A DNA stretch of 33,798 nucleotides from Chloroflexota bacterium. Its GTDB lineage: Bacteria > Chloroflexota > Dehalococcoidia > Lucifugimonadales > UBA3495. Position numbers and translations under genes: made by a program. Each line of letters begins with the position of its first letter. The first letter of the stretch is position 1. Location of the stretch: contig JADFPD010000012.1 of NCBI GenBank assembly GCA_022562475.1, positions 1 to 33,798 on the forward strand, read 5' to 3'. Of this stretch, positions 7,901 to 33,798 are shown one piece after another. The notes beneath the pieces are model-generated. The model made no database searches. It was not told the origin of the DNA and saw nothing but the letters and a program-made list of their open reading frames with translations.

Positions 7901-10720
7901 ATGGTAACAATTACCCCACACCAATTTGCCATCAAATGGCGGGCGTCAACGCACAAAGAAATTTCTGCCTACGTATCTCATTTTGAAGATTTGTGTCGGC
8001 TAATTGACCATGCCACGCCCACAGATCTCGATTCGACGGGGGGATTTTTCAGTTATCAAAAAGCGAATTTAAAAGAGTCCGGTCAACAGGGTTTCGCTGA
8101 TGTTTGGTATAAAGATCGGTTTGGTTGGGAATATGTTGGAAAAGGAGGGAACCTTCACGAGAAATATCAGCAATTGTTGCAGTATCGAGACAATCTTGCC
8201 AATCCACCTCTACTCGTCGTATGCGATTTTGACACGATAGAAATACATACGAATTTTAATGGGACCATCTCTCGGATCTACCACATTTCGTTGGATCACC
8301 TTTCCGATAGTACTTTGCAGGTTGCTGGCACAGAATTGACCGGCATCCAAGTGATTCGAGCTTGCTTCTACGATCCAGAGTCCCTAAAGCCCGGTCAGTC
8401 CACCGAAGAATTGACCAAAGAGGCAGCAGATCGCTTCGGGGAAATCGCTGAAAGTTTACGAATCTGGAATAACGACGACGAGCAAATCGCTAAGTACCTT
8501 ACCCGTCTTATCTTTTGTATGTTTGCGAGCGATGTTGGACTACTACCGAAGGGCATCATCACCAACATGATCAATGCGAGTCTAGCGATGCCGGTAGGTA
8601 CGCAGGCGTTCGCTGAGAGATTGCGAATGTTATTCGGGGCGATGCAAAAAGGCGGATTGTTTGGCAACGACCAGATTGAATTCTTTGACGGCGGTCTTTT
8701 CAGCGATGATGAGGCTCTACATGTTGACTCCGACAATCTAGGTGCGCTTCGGAGGGCCGATGAACTTAACTGGGCGGACATCGAGCCCTCAGTCTTCGGA
8801 ACTCTCTTCGAACGCATCGTAAACCCCGCTAAACGCTCTCAATTGGGAGCACATTACACATCTCGGTCTGATATTGAAGAAATTGTTGAACCTACTTTGA
8901 TTTGGCCCCTCGCAAATGAATGGCAAATTATTGAAAAGGAGGTGGCGAACCTCTTAGTTCAGAGCGATGGCGTTGATGCACCAACGCCTCCTGATCAGAG
9001 CGAAGCGACGAACAGGATAACGGAGTTTCTCCACAAACTCGGGGCTACGAAAATCTTGGACCCTGCCTGCGGTTCTGGAAATTTCCTTTATGTCAGCCTT
9101 GCAAAGCTCAAGGAGCTTGAACAAAAAGTGGTCTCCTCCGCAGCAAAATGGGGCATATTTGGGCTCGAACCGAAAGTACATCCGCGCCAACTTTTTGGAA
9201 TAGAAATTGACCCTTATGCCCATCAGCTCGCAAGTATTGTAGTTTGGATTGGATACCTGCAGTGGAAATATCAAAATGGAATCTCGTTTTCGGACGAAAT
9301 TCCCATACTTCAGCCTTTAGATAACATCGTACTAATGAACGGCATTCTGGACATCTCCGATCCGGAGAATCCCGTTGAACCGGATTGGCCAGAAGCAGAA
9401 TTCATTGTCGGAAACCCGCCGTTCTTGGGAGGTAAAAAACTCCGGCAAGGCCTGGGAGACGGATATGTGGACTCGCTATTCCGTGTCTGGAAAGGTCGAG
9501 TCCGCCGAGAGGCGGATTTGTGCTGCTATTGGCACGAAAAAGCACGAGCGATGATTGAAGAAGGCCGAGCGCAACGGGCTGGCCTGCTTGCTACCCAAGC
9601 CATCCGAGGTGGTGCGAATCGGGCGACTTTGGATCGCGTCAAATCAACTGGAGATATTTTCTTTGCAATCCCGGATAGGCCATGGGTTTTAGAAGGAGCA
9701 GCCGTTCATGTTTCGATGGTCGGATTTGATAACGGTGCGGAACAGAATCGCGTCCTCGATGGACAGCCCGTAGGAAATATACTGTCGGATCTCTCATCGG
9801 GTGTTGATGTCACGCACGTATCTAGATTAAAGGAAAACCTGGGTGTCGCATTCATGGGAGATACAAAAGGGGGAGCGTTCGATATATCGGAAGCGGTAGC
9901 GCATGAATTGATGCGTATACCTAACCCTCATAATAGAAGTAACACTGAGGTGCTGTGTAGATGGGTCAATGGCTCCGATATAACTGGTCGGCCGCGAGGG
10001 ATGTGGATCGTTGATTTTGGCACGAATATGAGCCTTGAGCAGGCGGCAATGTTTGAAGGCCCATTTAAGTATATTGACGCACACGTCAAGCCTCGTCGGT
10101 TACGCTTGGACGACGATGGGCAATTCGTGGTTAAGCGAGAGACATACAGAGAATCGTGGTGGCTTCATATGGAGCCTCGACCCACAATGCGCGATGCCCT
10201 ATCGCCACTGAAACGTTTTATTGTCACGCCATGTTTAAGCAAACACCGGTTGTTCTCTTGGCTTGAAGTTGGTACCTTGCCCGACCATGCTTTAATTGTC
10301 TTTGCCCGCGACGATGATTATACCTTTGGATTGCTACATTCGAAGGCCCACGAAATTTGGGCGCTAAAAATGGGTACTCAATTGGAAAGCCGTCCCCGTT
10401 ATACGCCCACTACAACATTCGAAACATTTCCTTTCCCGCAACCTTCCGAATTACAAATTACAGCAATTTCCAAGGCTTCCGAGCAGTTGAATGCCCATCG
10501 GGAATCTTGGCTTAACCCGCCAAAGGACGATATTCTAGAAATTGACCTTGCTGCTCGCACCCTGACGTCCCTGTACAACGAGAGACCCACATGGTTGCAC
10601 CTCGCCCATCAGAAATTGGATGAGGCTGTTTTTAGCGCTTATGGATGGTCGGACAAAATCACCGATGAGGAGATTCTAGGGAGACTGCTGAAATTGAACG
10701 AATCGCGCGACCCGGTTTAG
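7901..10720 (+). CDS. MmeI-like Type IIL restriction-modification fusion (N6-adenine DNA methyltransferase with N-terminal PD-(D/E)XK-type region)
   Basis: N-terminal GFADVWYKDRFGWEYVGKGGNLHEKYQQLLQYRDNLANPPLLVVCDFDTIEIHTNF; FGTLFERIVNPAKRSQLGAHYTSRSDIEEIVEP; SAM motif ILDPACGSGNFLYVSL; motif IV FIVGNPPFLGGKKLRQGLGDGYV; TRD-like C-terminal half; AT-richer than flanks. Confidence 0.9.
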   Translation: MVTITPHQFAIKWRASTHKEISAYVSHFEDLCRLIDHATPTDLDSTGGFFSYQKANLKESGQQGFADVWYKDRFGWEYVGKGGNLHEKYQQLLQYRDNLANPPLLVVCDFDTIEIHTNFNGTISRIYHISLDHLSDSTLQVAGTELTGIQVIRACFYDPESLKPGQSTEELTKEAADRFGEIAESLRIWNNDDEQIAKYLTRLIFCMFASDVGLLPKGIITNMINASLAMPVGTQAFAERLRMLFGAMQKGGLFGNDQIEFFDGGLFSDDEALHVDSDNLGALRRADELNWADIEPSVFGTLFERIVNPAKRSQLGAHYTSRSDIEEIVEPTLIWPLANEWQIIEKEVANLLVQSDGVDAPTPPDQSEATNRITEFLHKLGATKILDPACGSGNFLYVSLAKLKELEQKVVSSAAKWGIFGLEPKVHPRQLFGIEIDPYAHQLASIVVWIGYLQWKYQNGISFSDEIPILQPLDNIVLMNGILDISDPENPVEPDWPEAEFIVGNPPFLGGKKLRQGLGDGYVDSLFRVWKGRVRREADLCCYWHEKARAMIEEGRAQRAGLLATQAIRGGANRATLDRVKSTGDIFFAIPDRPWVLEGAAVHVSMVGFDNGAEQNRVLDGQPVGNILSDLSSGVDVTHVSRLKENLGVAFMGDTKGGAFDISEAVAHELMRIPNPHNRSNTEVLCRWVNGSDITGRPRGMWIVDFGTNMSLEQAAMFEGPFKYIDAHVKPRRLRLDDDGQFVVKRETYRESWWLHMEPRPTMRDALSPLKRFIVTPCLSKHRLFSWLEVGTLPDHALIVFARDDDYTFGLLHSKAHEIWALKMGTQLESRPRYTPTTTFETFPFPQPSELQITAISKASEQLNAHRESWLNPPKDDILEIDLAARTLTSLYNERPTWLHLAHQKLDEAVFSAYGWSDKITDEEILGRLLKLNESRDPV

Positions 10721-14403: not shown

Positions 14404-14495
14404 TGTCACCCTGAGAGAGGCGAAGGGTCTCTTTATGCCCGGTTAGGGTTGGCGTATCGGCAACGAGATTCTTCGGCTGACACCTCAGAATGACA
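14404..14495. repeat. MITE-like repeat, copy 2
   Basis: tgtcaccctgagagaggcgaagggtctc...agattcttcggctgacacctcagaatgaca. Confidence 0.75.
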
Positions 14496-19651: not shown

Positions 19652-19669
19652 TGAGGCATATCCCACAAA

Positions 19670-19752
19670 TGTCATTCTGAGGAGTGCCTTAGGCCGACGA
19701 AGAATCTACCAATTTCAATCCTGGCAGACCCTTCTCTTCGCTCAGGGCGACA
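19670..19752. repeat. MITE-like repeat, copy 3 (inverted orientation)
   Basis: tgtcattctgaggagtgccttaggccgacgaagaatctaccaa...ggcagacccttctcttcgctcagggcgaca. Confidence 0.75.
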
Positions 19753-19834
19753 ATCGGGGATGGGCAGCGCGATTCGGGGACCTGGTGCGGCTGATCCACT
19801 CGAGGAAAATGTTAACGTTGCAACGGACTTATAA

Positions 19835-27222: not shown

Positions 27223-27304
27223 AGGCCAACCCTCTTTTAGGAATCATCAGCACCGCGTAACTGTCACCGTTGCATATTAATCGTTGGAACGGAGGCAAGG
27301 CCGT

Positions 27305-27378
27305 TGTCACCCTGAGTGAAACGAAGGGTCTGCCAAGTTGGGGTTGGCAGATTCTTCGGCTGACGCCTCAGAATGACA
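27305..27378. repeat. MITE-like repeat, copy 4
   Basis: tgtcaccctgagtgaaacgaagggtctgccaagttggggttggcagattcttcggctgacgcctcagaatgaca. Confidence 0.8.
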
Positions 27379-27496
27379 TTAATATCACGACCGGCAAGTA
27401 GCAGTGCCGATCGGCCCGGCAAAAAAGGCCGAAAGCCCCCGACAACTGTATACTTGCGGCAAGTCTCATCAAACCTAAAATGAACGGAGGCGCACC

Positions 27497-30112: not shown

Positions 30113-30169
30113 CCGTTCCTCCTGAAATCTCGGGCTGGAATCTTTGTTTGATGCCTTTATCAAGACATA

Positions 30170-30204
30170 GCATCACCACGCATTCAGAGATACTGTGGTG
30201 ATGC
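30170..30204. promoter_or_regulatory. 10-bp inverted repeat upstream of the alpha-hydroxy acid oxidase, possible operator
   Basis: GCATCACCAC-15nt-GTGGTGATGC. Confidence 0.35.
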
Positions 30205-30364
30205 CAAAATCGAACTTACTCTAACGCGGACCGGCGTTGGTGGCAAGTGTAGGGAAAAGACACGATTACCCCTTTGACTATCGAAGTCGACTGCAATATG
30301 CTTCGGGAATCCTTACCATCTCAGAATGAGATTATTACCTTTAAAAACGTAGAGGATTTCTATA

Positions 30365-31141
30365 TTGGGACATGAAAGAATCGGTGTCCTTCCCCAGACG
30401 AAAGCTTGGCGTGATGTCATCGATGGAATTTCATCGGCGATCAACCTAGAAATCGGGACGCAGGAATTGGCATGGGCTACTTTAGAAAACGTCCGAAATC
30501 AATTCCGAAGAATTCACGAGGATCCCGGAGTGGCGGCCGCTTTTAAATTTCTTTTGGAGCTTTCTAGGTCATCGTTGCCTAATCCATCGGTTCGGGGTGC
30601 GGACACACCTGAGATTGAACTGGCATCGAATCCGTCGATTTTACGCATCGTGATATCGCTCCGGGCTTGGGTTGACGAACACCGGGTTTCAACGGAATAT
30701 GCCGACCTCGCCAAAAAGGCAGCAGCTGACGTAATAACTGCGTGGTCTAACCAACAATCTCAACAACCGTCGCTGTTCAGTGGGGCTATAGACTCTCAAG
30801 AAATTTGGAGACGCGCTGCCAACGGATCGGGTTTCTGCGAGGTATCCAGGTTATTCTTTGCCAGGTTCACAGAGCGCTATTTAAACTATTTCTTAGACCG
30901 GGCTGCCTCAGCCGTCTTGCCTAGTGCGTCAGAACGAGACCAATTTGCAGCGAAGGTACATGAACACCTTGATGACATATCAAAGTACGCTTTCGAAACA
31001 TCTAGAATCACTCAATCATTTGCTGCAGGATGGTTCAACCTTTATGCCTTGGAGCGAGCGCCTTCAAACCAAGAGCTGACATCGTTTCTCTCGATAGCTT
31101 TCGGAAAGATTCGCGATGAGCTATCTCGGGAGGCACGCTGA
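30365..31141 (+). CDS. Partner protein of QueC/QatC-like enzyme (QatB-like by position; unknown function)
   Basis: TTG start giving MGHERIGVLPQTKAWRDVIDGISSAIN...; in-frame stop TAG at 30350; AGAGG at 30351-30355; stop codon 2 nt before next ATG. Confidence 0.7.
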   Translation: MGHERIGVLPQTKAWRDVIDGISSAINLEIGTQELAWATLENVRNQFRRIHEDPGVAAAFKFLLELSRSSLPNPSVRGADTPEIELASNPSILRIVISLRAWVDEHRVSTEYADLAKKAAADVITAWSNQQSQQPSLFSGAIDSQEIWRRAANGSGFCEVSRLFFARFTERYLNYFLDRAASAVLPSASERDQFAAKVHEHLDDISKYAFETSRITQSFAAGWFNLYALERAPSNQELTSFLSIAFGKIRDELSREAR

Positions 31142-31143
31142 TC

Positions 31144-33018
31144 ATGATTGTCAGCCCTCCGGTGTATGTATTTTGCAATGGAGCCAACATAAACGAGATC
31201 ACAGAGGATGCATCTCTGGAAAAAACCCTGATTTTGAATTATGAACATGGTAAAGGCTCTGATCAAAATATCCACCTTGAATTGCCGGATTTTGTGAGAT
31301 CTGTTTACAACTTACCGGATAGAATCTTAGATTTGCTCGAGATTGCTGCTTTCGTATTTTGTGCCGACCGACTAAATATTAGAGGTTCAAAAGACGCCGT
31401 GGAGTTCCACAGTTGGTCAAGGACATTTGAATTTGTGATAAAAGTCCGTGACATCACTTTCTGGGAGCAATCTGAAGTCAAACAAGCTCTTTCTGCCGCA
31501 CTTGAGTTCATGACGGGTGATCGGGAATTCCGGTTTACGTTTTTACCCGGCCATTCAACGCCGATCACTAGCTTGTTCGATAACAAACAATTTCGAATTG
31601 AGGACGGTAATAATATATCCGTGGCTTTGTTTTCGGGGGGGCTCGATTCTCTTACAGGCGTAGTCCAACTATTGGAAAAAACTGACGATTCAATCTGCTT
31701 GGTAAGCCATCAATCTCAGACAGGAACAACAAGAACACAACGTCAATTGGTAGAGGCATTGGCCCGGAAATATTCAGGAAGAGTATCGCATTACAAATTT
31801 AAATGCACTCTCCGAGGCAAACGAGCCAACGAGGAGACGCAACGGACGAGATCGTTTTTATATATGAGCATAGCGTTTGCGATTGGGCATGCTTTTTCCA
31901 GAGACGAGTTTTATGTATTTGAAAATGGAATTACAGGTATGAATTTTGGGAGGAGGGAAGATTTATCGAATGCGCGGGCAAGCAGGACTGTACATCCACA
32001 GACCCTCCACCACCTCCGCAAGCTTTTTGAATTGATAACTGGAAATCAAATGGTTATCCACACGCCATTTTTGTGGTCGACGAAAACAGAGGTCTTTCAA
32101 ATGCTCCTCGCAAGTGACAATTCGGATTTAATCTCGAGCTCAGTTTCGTGCAGCAAGACATTCGCCAATTTAGGCCAAGCATCACATTGTGGTGGATGTT
32201 CTCAATGCATAGATCGGCGGATAGCCGCATATGCAGCGAAAGCTGATGATCTTGATGATGCTGGAATCTATCATCGGAATATAATCGTTGAACCAATAAC
32301 AGAAGCAGAAGTTAAGACAACCGCGATCGATTATATAAGGCAAGCAAAAGATTTTGGAGATTGGAATTTCGATCATTTCTGTTCACAGATGATTAGCGAA
32401 TTATCAGAACTTGTGGATTACCTACCGAATGTTAGCGACGAATTTGAAGCGATTGAACGGGTTTGGGATCTCTGTCGGCGCCACGGCCAGCAGGTGTTTT
32501 TAGGCATGCATCGAATGAGGGCTATCCATGACGACCTCTCGAAGAGCCTCGAAAGCGATTCTTTGCTCCAACTTATTTCCGTGCGCGAGTATTTACGAAA
32601 TCCAGTGGAAAGGTTGATGACAGCAATACGGGATATTGTTTCTACCGGGGTCCCACGTATGTTCAGAGATTATCCACCTAAAAACGAGGCGGATTTAAAT
32701 AGCAAGATTAACGCACTGTTGGATACCCACTCAATGGACCTAAGAAGTGAGCACCCGGCACCATCATTTGCGTGTGCCAGTGTGGTGCCAGATCACTCCT
32801 TTGAAGACCGCGATCTTCTGATTGAATCAAAATACATACGCACGGGAACGTCACCAAGCAAGGCATCTGAAGGTATTGCAGCCGATATTACTAAATACCC
32901 AAAAGACTCCCATATTCTTTTCCTTGTATACGATCCTTTACGCGCAATCAAAGATGACGAGACTTTTTGTAGTGACTTCGAGTCGACCGGCAGATGCACA
33001 ATCTGCATTATTAGATAA
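31144..33018 (+). CDS. QueC/QatC-like PP-loop ATPase with C-terminal PD-(D/E)XK-like domain
   Basis: PP-loop VALFSGGLDSLTGVVQLL; Zn motif SCSKTFANLGQASHCGGCSQCIDRRIAAYAA; C-terminal PDHSFEDRDLLIESKYIRTGTSPSKASEGIAADITKYPKDSHILFLVYDP. Confidence 0.8.
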   Translation: MIVSPPVYVFCNGANINEITEDASLEKTLILNYEHGKGSDQNIHLELPDFVRSVYNLPDRILDLLEIAAFVFCADRLNIRGSKDAVEFHSWSRTFEFVIKVRDITFWEQSEVKQALSAALEFMTGDREFRFTFLPGHSTPITSLFDNKQFRIEDGNNISVALFSGGLDSLTGVVQLLEKTDDSICLVSHQSQTGTTRTQRQLVEALARKYSGRVSHYKFKCTLRGKRANEETQRTRSFLYMSIAFAIGHAFSRDEFYVFENGITGMNFGRREDLSNARASRTVHPQTLHHLRKLFELITGNQMVIHTPFLWSTKTEVFQMLLASDNSDLISSSVSCSKTFANLGQASHCGGCSQCIDRRIAAYAAKADDLDDAGIYHRNIIVEPITEAEVKTTAIDYIRQAKDFGDWNFDHFCSQMISELSELVDYLPNVSDEFEAIERVWDLCRRHGQQVFLGMHRMRAIHDDLSKSLESDSLLQLISVREYLRNPVERLMTAIRDIVSTGVPRMFRDYPPKNEADLNSKINALLDTHSMDLRSEHPAPSFACASVVPDHSFEDRDLLIESKYIRTGTSPSKASEGIAADITKYPKDSHILFLVYDPLRAIKDDETFCSDFESTGRCTICIIR

Positions 33019-33051
33019 TTGAAAAGCTCGGTTTTCGAGATAAATAACGGA

Positions 33052-33078
33052 CAAAAAGGGGCGGACTTAGTCCGCCCC
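33052..33078 (-). terminator. Intrinsic terminator for the minus-strand ferredoxin oxidoreductase gene
   Basis: On the minus strand GGGGCGGAC TAA GTCCGCCCC followed by TTTTTG; 9-bp stem. Confidence 0.75.
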
Positions 33079-33128
33079 CTCTCTATGCTAGAACGATTTT
33101 TGGTACCCAGCGTACGCAGTACCAGCGC

Positions 33129-33798
33129 CTACTCTTCTTGGCTGGCCGAGATCGGAATTACGCCGGGGAGCCACCAACTCTCCCAACTCTCGTCCACCTT
33201 GTCCTGGAAGTGTTTGATGTCTTCCGGGGTGAAGTGGGCGAAGCGGCCTTGGCGCATCAGGTAATCTTCCACGGGCTTCCGCTTCCGGATACCCTTGGCG
33301 ATCGACCGGCTGGGGCCGTTCAGGGTCAGCTTACCCTCGATGATCTCGTATTGGACCCAGATTCCCGTCTCGATGGACAGCATCCCCAATTCGTGGGAGT
33401 ACTTGGGGTCGTAGTCCCAGCCCTTGGGACAGGGATCTATGCTGTGGATGAAGGTGGGGCCGCCGATGGTCAGGGCGCGGCGAATCTTGTTGTTGAAATC
33501 CAACCCATAAGAACCGCAGGCGGTGGCCACATACTTAACGTTGGGATGGCCAACGGCGAGCATGGGGGCCATGTTTTTCTTCCAGCGGTTGTTCATGATC
33601 CGGGTCTCTTTGCCGGGGGGGCTGAACGTGGTGTTGGCGCCCCACGGCGTGCCGCCAGAAGCCTGGATATCGGTGTTGGCGTAAGACTCGTTGTCATAGC
33701 AGAGGATCAACAGGTTGTACTCATCGTGCTGCAGGGCCGCCGAGATGGCGGAGAGCCCCATGTCCATGCCGCCGCCATCGCCGCAGAAGGCAATGACG
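33129..33798 (-). CDS. 2-oxoacid (pyruvate):ferredoxin oxidoreductase beta subunit, truncated by window edge
   Basis: VIAFCGDGGGMDMGLSAISAALQHDEYNLLILCYDNESYANTDIQASGGTPWGANTTFSPPGK...VKYVATACGSYGLDFNNKIRRAL...GPTFIHSIDPCPKGW, TPP-binding beta subunit. Confidence 0.9.
   Translation of the reverse strand, partial: VIAFCGDGGGMDMGLSAISAALQHDEYNLLILCYDNESYANTDIQASGGTPWGANTTFSPPGKETRIMNNRWKKNMAPMLAVGHPNVKYVATACGSYGLDFNNKIRRALTIGGPTFIHSIDPCPKGWDYDPKYSHELGMLSIETGIWVQYEIIEGKLTLNGPSRSIAKGIRKRKPVEDYLMRQGRFAHFTPEDIKHFQDKVDESWESWWLPGVIPISASQEE

Follow-up and report, generated by a model that had tools for sequence, protein, structure and literature searches.

A two-gene cassette pairing a nuclease-tailed QatC-type protein with an unnamed partner, a candidate Qat-like defence module in a Chloroflexota genome

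The closest described relatives of the locus analysed here are the Qat system and type IV CBASS. A 1:1 complex of QatB with QatC is enough for defence against some phages, and both the ATP site of QatC and Gly2 of QatB are essential for that defence (PMC13279940). The QatB N-terminus reads MGTS, with the essential glycine, and is followed by a Pro/Trp element (PMC13279940). In type IV CBASS, Cap9 conjugates the 7-deazaguanine CDG to Gly2 of the CD-NTase, which begins with MGGS (PMC13279940). The action of QatC on the N-terminal glycine of QatB has only been proposed, and the QatC reaction is unresolved; the QatC pocket is devoid of the CDG-binding Tyr/Asp and furnished with two threonines instead (PMC13279940). 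A QatC that was tested has lost preQ0 synthesis (PMC13329287). How phage comes to be restricted once QatC has acted on its partner is, according to the 2026 structural paper, still an open question (PMC13279940).

The locus lies in the genome of a Chloroflexota bacterium. The window, i.e., the whole stretch of DNA that was analysed, comprises 33,798 nucleotides (contig JADFPD010000012.1), and the features relevant to this work are as follows:

30254..33035, no strand assigned: inserted low-GC accessory segment, made up of the cassette genes plus some 110 bp ahead of them, with flanks syntenic in cassette-free congeners
30365-31141, plus strand: ORF1, 258 aa, TTG start, with the N-terminal motif MGHxRxGxLPxTxxW; all-helical by prediction and of no named family; putative substrate of ORF2 and possibly a sensor
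30365..30409, plus strand: first 15 residues of ORF1, MGHERIGVLPQTKAW, a conserved low-confidence tail, probably disordered, whose Gly2 is the putative acceptor in the QatC reaction
31144-33018, plus strand: ORF2, 624 aa, ATG start; QatC-type protein with a C-terminal nuclease domain
31618..32220, plus strand: QueC/QatC core of ORF2 (about residues 159-359), with SGGLDS, RTRSF, ENG, SRTxHP, PFLWSTK and C-x12-CxxCxxC-IDRR, matching PF06508
32680..33015, plus strand: DpnII/MboI-type PD-(D/E)xK nuclease domain, residues 513-624, with P549-D550 ... E561-S-K563 (PF18742)

The initial annotation had described two ORFs of 258 and 624 aa on the same strand, 2 nt apart, in an AT-richer block. The coordinates and the TGA-tc-ATG junction held, as did the base composition, since the GC content of 30254-33035 is 45% vs about 60% around it. 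An in-frame TAG at 30350-30352, five codons upstream, leaves TTG as the sole usable start of ORF1, and the purine-rich, ribosome-site-like AGAGG lies 9 nt upstream of it, at suitable spacing. A promoter-like site at 30274-30302 is suitably placed 5' of ORF1; such sites were equally frequent in shuffled sequence.

ORF2 carries the SGGLDS motif (S164-S169), the C-x12-C-x2-C-x2-C zinc motif (C336, C349, C352, C355) and the N- and C-terminal extensions, all of which had been recognised at the outset. It matched the NCBIfam QatC profile with an E-value of 9.6e-55 (186 bits, cut-off 280 bits) and the PADLOC QatC profile with an E-value of 1.2e-46, while its score with the QueC profile TIGR00364 was 30 bits, below the cut-off of 150. 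Its best solved relative by sequence in the PDB was QatC 9vlk (E 5.4e-23), and its AlphaFold2 model (mean pLDDT 82) matched 9y01_B, the QatC chain of a QatB-QatC crystal structure (E 1.5e-16, TM 0.72 by target length). The core motif columns of ORF2 were invariant in 21 QatC proteins, canonical ones included. With ten canonical QatC proteins from qat operons the ATP loop, the zinc ligands and the RxR, NG and HP positions were invariant, and the columns common to ORF2 and canonical QatC were D75, R80, R93, W107, R234, R236, HP, T313, CGxCxxC and RR. The positions that hold the CDG-binding Tyr/Asp in a Cap9/QueC-type pocket aligned to S280 and T282 of ORF2 (SRTxHP), a Ser/Thr pair at the place of the QatC-type threonines. 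By profile, by solved sequence and by predicted fold, ORF2 is a complete QatC-type protein, though one that scores below the NCBIfam cut-off and branches apart from canonical QatC, and neither a queuosine QueC nor Cap9.

A queuosine/preQ0 biosynthesis enzyme, or another housekeeping QueC paralogue, would also match PF06508, and the PP-loop SGGxDS and the four-Cys zinc site of ORF2 are indeed shared with canonical QueC. We regard this explanation as practically untenable. ORF2 is far nearer to QatC than to QueC, with QatC-specific motifs, extensions and a nuclease domain, it is absent from most relatives, it lies in an insertion not found in congeners, and the genome has its own queE-queC-queD cluster on a separate contig (C12). 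The initial annotation had noted that queD, queE, queF and tgt are lacking from the window; none was noticed there, without a systematic search, but queD and queE do occur elsewhere in the genome. As queD and queE are present, a supply of CDG is conceivable in this genome, and the altered pocket leaves another donor possible.

With type IV CBASS the cassette shares a QueC-family protein next to a partner with an N-terminal MG motif, the proposed acceptor. It differs in its Thr/Ser pocket in place of Tyr/Asp, and in that its effector is fused rather than signalled. Moreover, no CD-NTase or Cap10-like gene was seen by the cassette; ORF1 had no CD-NTase match and the flanking genes are metabolic, in agreement with what had been claimed for CD-NTase.

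In the alignment, canonical QatC stops where the extra domain of ORF2 starts. Residues 513-616 of this tail matched PF18742 with an E-value of 4.7e-12 (46.1 bits vs the cut-off of 27), and the PADLOC Aga_Helical-REase profile also matched it (E 8e-6). P549, D550, E561 and K563 are kept in all nuclease-bearing relatives, including loci L019 and L020 and a Leptospira plasmid copy. Judging from the sequence, the nuclease residues of ORF2 are intact, and DNA cleavage is inferred. The ESK motif that had been flagged proved to be the nuclease active site, even though the DpnII/MboI domain itself had gone unnamed. ORF2 shares this C-terminal nuclease family with other PF18742 proteins, the PADLOC Aga_Helical-REase among them, but its nuclease is fused to QatC, in a unit without Argonaute or methyltransferase.

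Two short peptide patterns, run over 85,462 species genomes, gave 28 loci, distributed among Chloroflexota, Verrucomicrobiota, Poribacteria, Armatimonadota, Bacillota, Pseudomonadota, Calditrichota and others. An intact MGH partner lay directly upstream of the QatC gene in 25 of them, mostly with an overlap of a few nucleotides, often 4 nt; the remaining three comprised one decayed partner in Pelotomaculum, one contig end within the partner and one fragment without a partner. In another family of the same order an intact pair is adjacent as well, with 58% identity to ORF2 and 57% to ORF1. This adjacency elsewhere in the order, together with the recurrence across phyla, argues that the pair is not a chance arrangement, and bears out the earlier expectation that the two genes co-occur. 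Within the order the partner family was met in 4 of 250 genomes. Carriage of the pair by viruses found no support, as no phage record contained it and a viral scan limited to two short patterns gave no viral contig. Clustering of the neighbours across loci did not find a third gene common to all, although recombinases, restriction-modification (R-M) enzymes and other unclassified ORFs recurred at some loci.

In the tree, ORF2 and its relatives branch apart from canonical QatC (support 100/99), and the subclade that holds ORF2 is also well supported (100/100). Two kinds of tail occur in this subclade: the DpnII/MboI nuclease in the window and at loci L018, L019, L020 and L054, and a TIR domain at L021, L022 and L023 (E 1e-14 to 1e-16), which, by analogy with known TIR immune proteins, is probably an NADase. 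A swap of nuclease and TIR at one position is the pattern expected for effectors, so we read the tail as an exchangeable output module. The same interchange strengthens, by comparison only, the initial proposal that an effector is fused to the QueC-type enzyme. Since most tails outside the REase/TIR subclade had no Pfam match, the effector nature of the tail is supported for a part of the family only, and the trees of the subclade were too poorly resolved for tail exchanges to be counted.

The tail exchange also bears on whether the cassette might be a modification-dependent or sequence-specific restriction enzyme, in which the nuclease would cut DNA directly and the QueC-like part would recognise or make a 7-deazaguanine base. 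The tail does belong to the DpnII/MboI restriction family, and R-M genes are frequent neighbours of the pair. However, the sister loci have TIR, and no DNA-cutting restriction domain, in the place of the nuclease, no methyltransferase or other third gene constantly accompanies the pair, and the pocket is of the QatC type, whose tested representative has lost preQ0 synthesis (PMC13329287). We consider a restriction enzyme very unlikely.

ORF1 proved harder to place than ORF2. No family was matched among the Pfam, NCBIfam and PHROG profiles, and the single PADLOC match was judged spurious. Its predicted model is all-helical (pLDDT 85), with pLDDT below 50 only at residues 1-10 (pLDDT 43). Foldseek of this model against the PDB gave no credible match (best E 0.13), which leaves ORF1 without a fold name, and a profile of the ORF1 family met only chance matches among PDB sequences. 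The MGHxRxGxLPxTxxW N-terminus ranks among the best-conserved stretches of ORF1, and every partner with a readable start begins with MGH, under ATG, GTG and TTG start codons alike.

The constant position of the partner gene upstream, often with a 4-nt overlap that suggests translational coupling, and the toxic type of the effectors would fit an abortive-infection or toxin-antitoxin pair, in which ORF1, as an immunity protein, inhibits the nuclease of ORF2, a phage relieves the inhibition, and the QueC domain is a scaffold only. A bare scaffold would need none of the PP-loop, the zinc site and the QatC-specific pocket residues, yet all of these are invariant, and few parts of ORF1 are as constrained as its low-confidence MGH N-terminus. 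A toxin-antitoxin arrangement is thus improbable in our judgement, without being negligible.

Whether ORF1 is related to QatB was not established. No QatB match for ORF1 was found by sequence in NCBIfam, PADLOC or the PDB, and QatB was absent among the 50 Foldseek matches listed, though the library includes QatB-QatC entries. An hhalign comparison of ORF1 with QatB gave a probability of 24% and a score of 32.4, whereas none of 40 block shuffles exceeded 25.3 and reversed QatB reached 27.0; we treat this signal as suggestive and do not use it as homology. ORF1 does have Gly2 and a low-confidence tail, but within the motif MGHxRxGxLP rather than MGTS.

The cassette resembles qatABCD in its two-protein core, where a helical partner with Gly2 and a probably disordered N-terminus precedes a QatC-type enzyme extended at both termini, and differs from it in the MGHxRxGxLP..W partner without significant homology to QatB, in the additional nuclease domain (TIR or other domains in relatives), in its separate clade, and in lacking QatA and QatD. 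In tblastn searches with three QatA and three QatD queries, in which the positive controls were detected, neither gene adjoined the pair in the window or in its relatives, with the exception of a weak, distant KAP ATPase match on the opposite strand at L039. This upheld the initial statement that no QatA-type ATPase or TatD nuclease lies beside the pair. It could be argued that the cassette is the remnant of an ordinary qatABCD operon that has lost qatA and qatD and in which QatBC still works, given that ORF2 is of the QatC type, that a weak profile signal links ORF1 to QatB, and that QatBC alone defends against some phages (PMC13279940). Against such a remnant stand the position of the ORF2 group outside canonical QatC (100/99), the maintenance of the MGH pair without qatA and qatD across several phyla, the ORF2 tail, which has no counterpart in canonical QatC, and the partner motif MGHxRxGxLP in place of MGTS. 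We therefore find a remnant unlikely, and the initial label of a reduced Qat-like system could not be kept for a separate branch of the QatC family whose partner has not been shown to be QatB. With this correction the initial hypothesis stands, on comparative support only, as none of the three outcomes named beforehand as refuting it was encountered.

When the window was compared by blastn with 10 genomes of the same genus, the cassette proved to be missing between the same flanking genes in all 10. The empty sites have a flank spacing of 209-1301 bp vs about 2.8-3 kb in the window, where the FMN-dehydrogenase flank runs to about 30128-30253 and the TPP-enzyme flank from about 33036-33190. Because these congeners carry the flanks without the cassette, it is an accessory insertion, and their empty sites argue against a chimeric contig. 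At the insertion edges we found no target-site duplication, no longer shared word and no signs of transposition.

The relatives lie beside defence and mobile-element genes rather than in queuosine operons, in line with the initial hypothesis. Their neighbours include Hma genes, CBASS effectors and adjoining type I and type IIG R-M genes, and, by eye, BREX-like genes; no matched control loci were used. L018 has an HmaC/DUF499-type gene on one side and CBASS-type TIR and phospholipase effectors on the other, L020 is flanked by type I and II methyltransferase-like genes and by a type I restriction subunit, and L021 and L022 lie 5' of type IIG enzymes. Such neighbours may also be explained as general cargo of mobile elements.

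From comparative evidence alone, the cassette is very probably an anti-phage defence system, with the defence activity inferred. The reading that we favour, with reasonable but limited confidence, is that of a two-gene Qat-like module, in which the QatC-type protein acts on the N-terminal glycine of ORF1 and the damage comes from a fused, exchangeable effector. Removal of Met1 would expose this glycine, and the QueC-like pocket of ORF2 would act on it in an ATP-dependent manner, a step demonstrated for Cap9 with its CD-NTase and so far only proposed for QatC with QatB. ORF1 and ORF2 would most likely form a complex. Infection would change the modification state or the engagement of the ORF1 tail and so release the fused nuclease, which may cut phage or cell DNA, and the TIR or other tails of relatives would be swapped output modules on a conserved two-protein chassis. 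What sequence and comparison yield is a core of the QatC type, an intact set of nuclease residues, the conserved MGH start, the near-constant pairing, the tail exchange, the defence context and the site insertion; complex formation, the reaction at Gly2, the trigger, nuclease activation and defence itself are inferred. Against this two-gene reading count the lack of any functional data, an ORF1 that is not detectably QatB, and the unresolved chemistry of QatC.

A bolder proposition, which we hold only tentatively, sees in the pair a bacterial immunity class of its own with a wide distribution: the QatC-type enzyme would attach a small molecule to Gly2 at the N-terminus of an unnamed partner family, and this switch would directly gate the effector fused to the enzyme, be it a nuclease, TIR or another domain. 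If true, sensing, modification and killing would be united in one two-protein machine.

The QatBC-like chassis is already known. The variant with a separate QatC clade, an MGH partner and fused exchangeable effectors, and without QatA and QatD, was not matched as a system in Pfam, NCBIfam, PADLOC 2.0.0 (2023) or PHROGs, and the absence of the pair from catalogued subtypes, as first supposed, agrees with an ORF1 without a family and an ORF2 below the NCBIfam QatC cut-off. No description of a QatC-effector fusion or of the MGH partner family was found in the papers searched, which did not cover preprints, so an earlier description is possible.

The nuclease or TIR fused to QatC is a likely answer to how the QatC reaction restricts phage, and since the output is fused it should be readable by simple assays of DNA cleavage or NAD loss. 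The partner glycine, the QatC pocket and the effector are separately mutable in the cassette, and the tail-swapped relatives make it possible to ask directly by what means QatC-type immunity kills phages. The MGH partner family also widens the idea of an N-terminal MG substrate past QatB and type IV CBASS.

Several further loci and elements were observed. On the Leptospira noguchii plasmid p1_LIP1709037 (L054, 8001-10645), an intact MGH partner and QatC-nuclease, annotated as hypothetical proteins, adjoin IS982 and IS3 transposases. In Pelotomaculum terephthalicicum (L024, 8800-12200) a decayed copy was met, in which the partner frame is joined to an apparent BrxL start, nuclease remnants lie in another frame and a PglZ-like gene is located upstream; this copy was probably overwritten within a BREX locus. 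A genome of the same genus as the window (G008; L079, 1374-5830) has an MGH/QatC pair beside a large serine recombinase, and because its tail is not a nuclease, no fewer than two different cassette versions have been acquired within the genus. Two other genomes (G136, L011, 746-2754; G049, L012, 722-2484) encode another two-gene pair, of a QatC-like protein with a different partner that starts with MP[DE]LDRF; an XRE/ImmA-IrrE-like gene comes next, and the pair may be a further minimal QatC variant that has not been recorded. A stand-alone 250-aa DpnII/MboI-domain protein lies by a KAP-type ATPase and an integrase-like ORF in G145 (L015, 1-2244).

In the window itself, a second defence gene, about 20 kb from the cassette, encodes a 939-aa MmeI-type (type IIL) R-M enzyme (7901-10720, plus strand; PF20473, E 2e-28) within a low-GC block at 7.5-11 kb. 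A dispersed repeat of about 76 bp (TGTCACCCTGAG...CTCAGAATGACAT) occurs at 27301-27385, 14404-14495 and 19668-19753 of the window and at 8478-8736 of L067; it has several copies in the genus, one of them in the empty insertion site of a congener.
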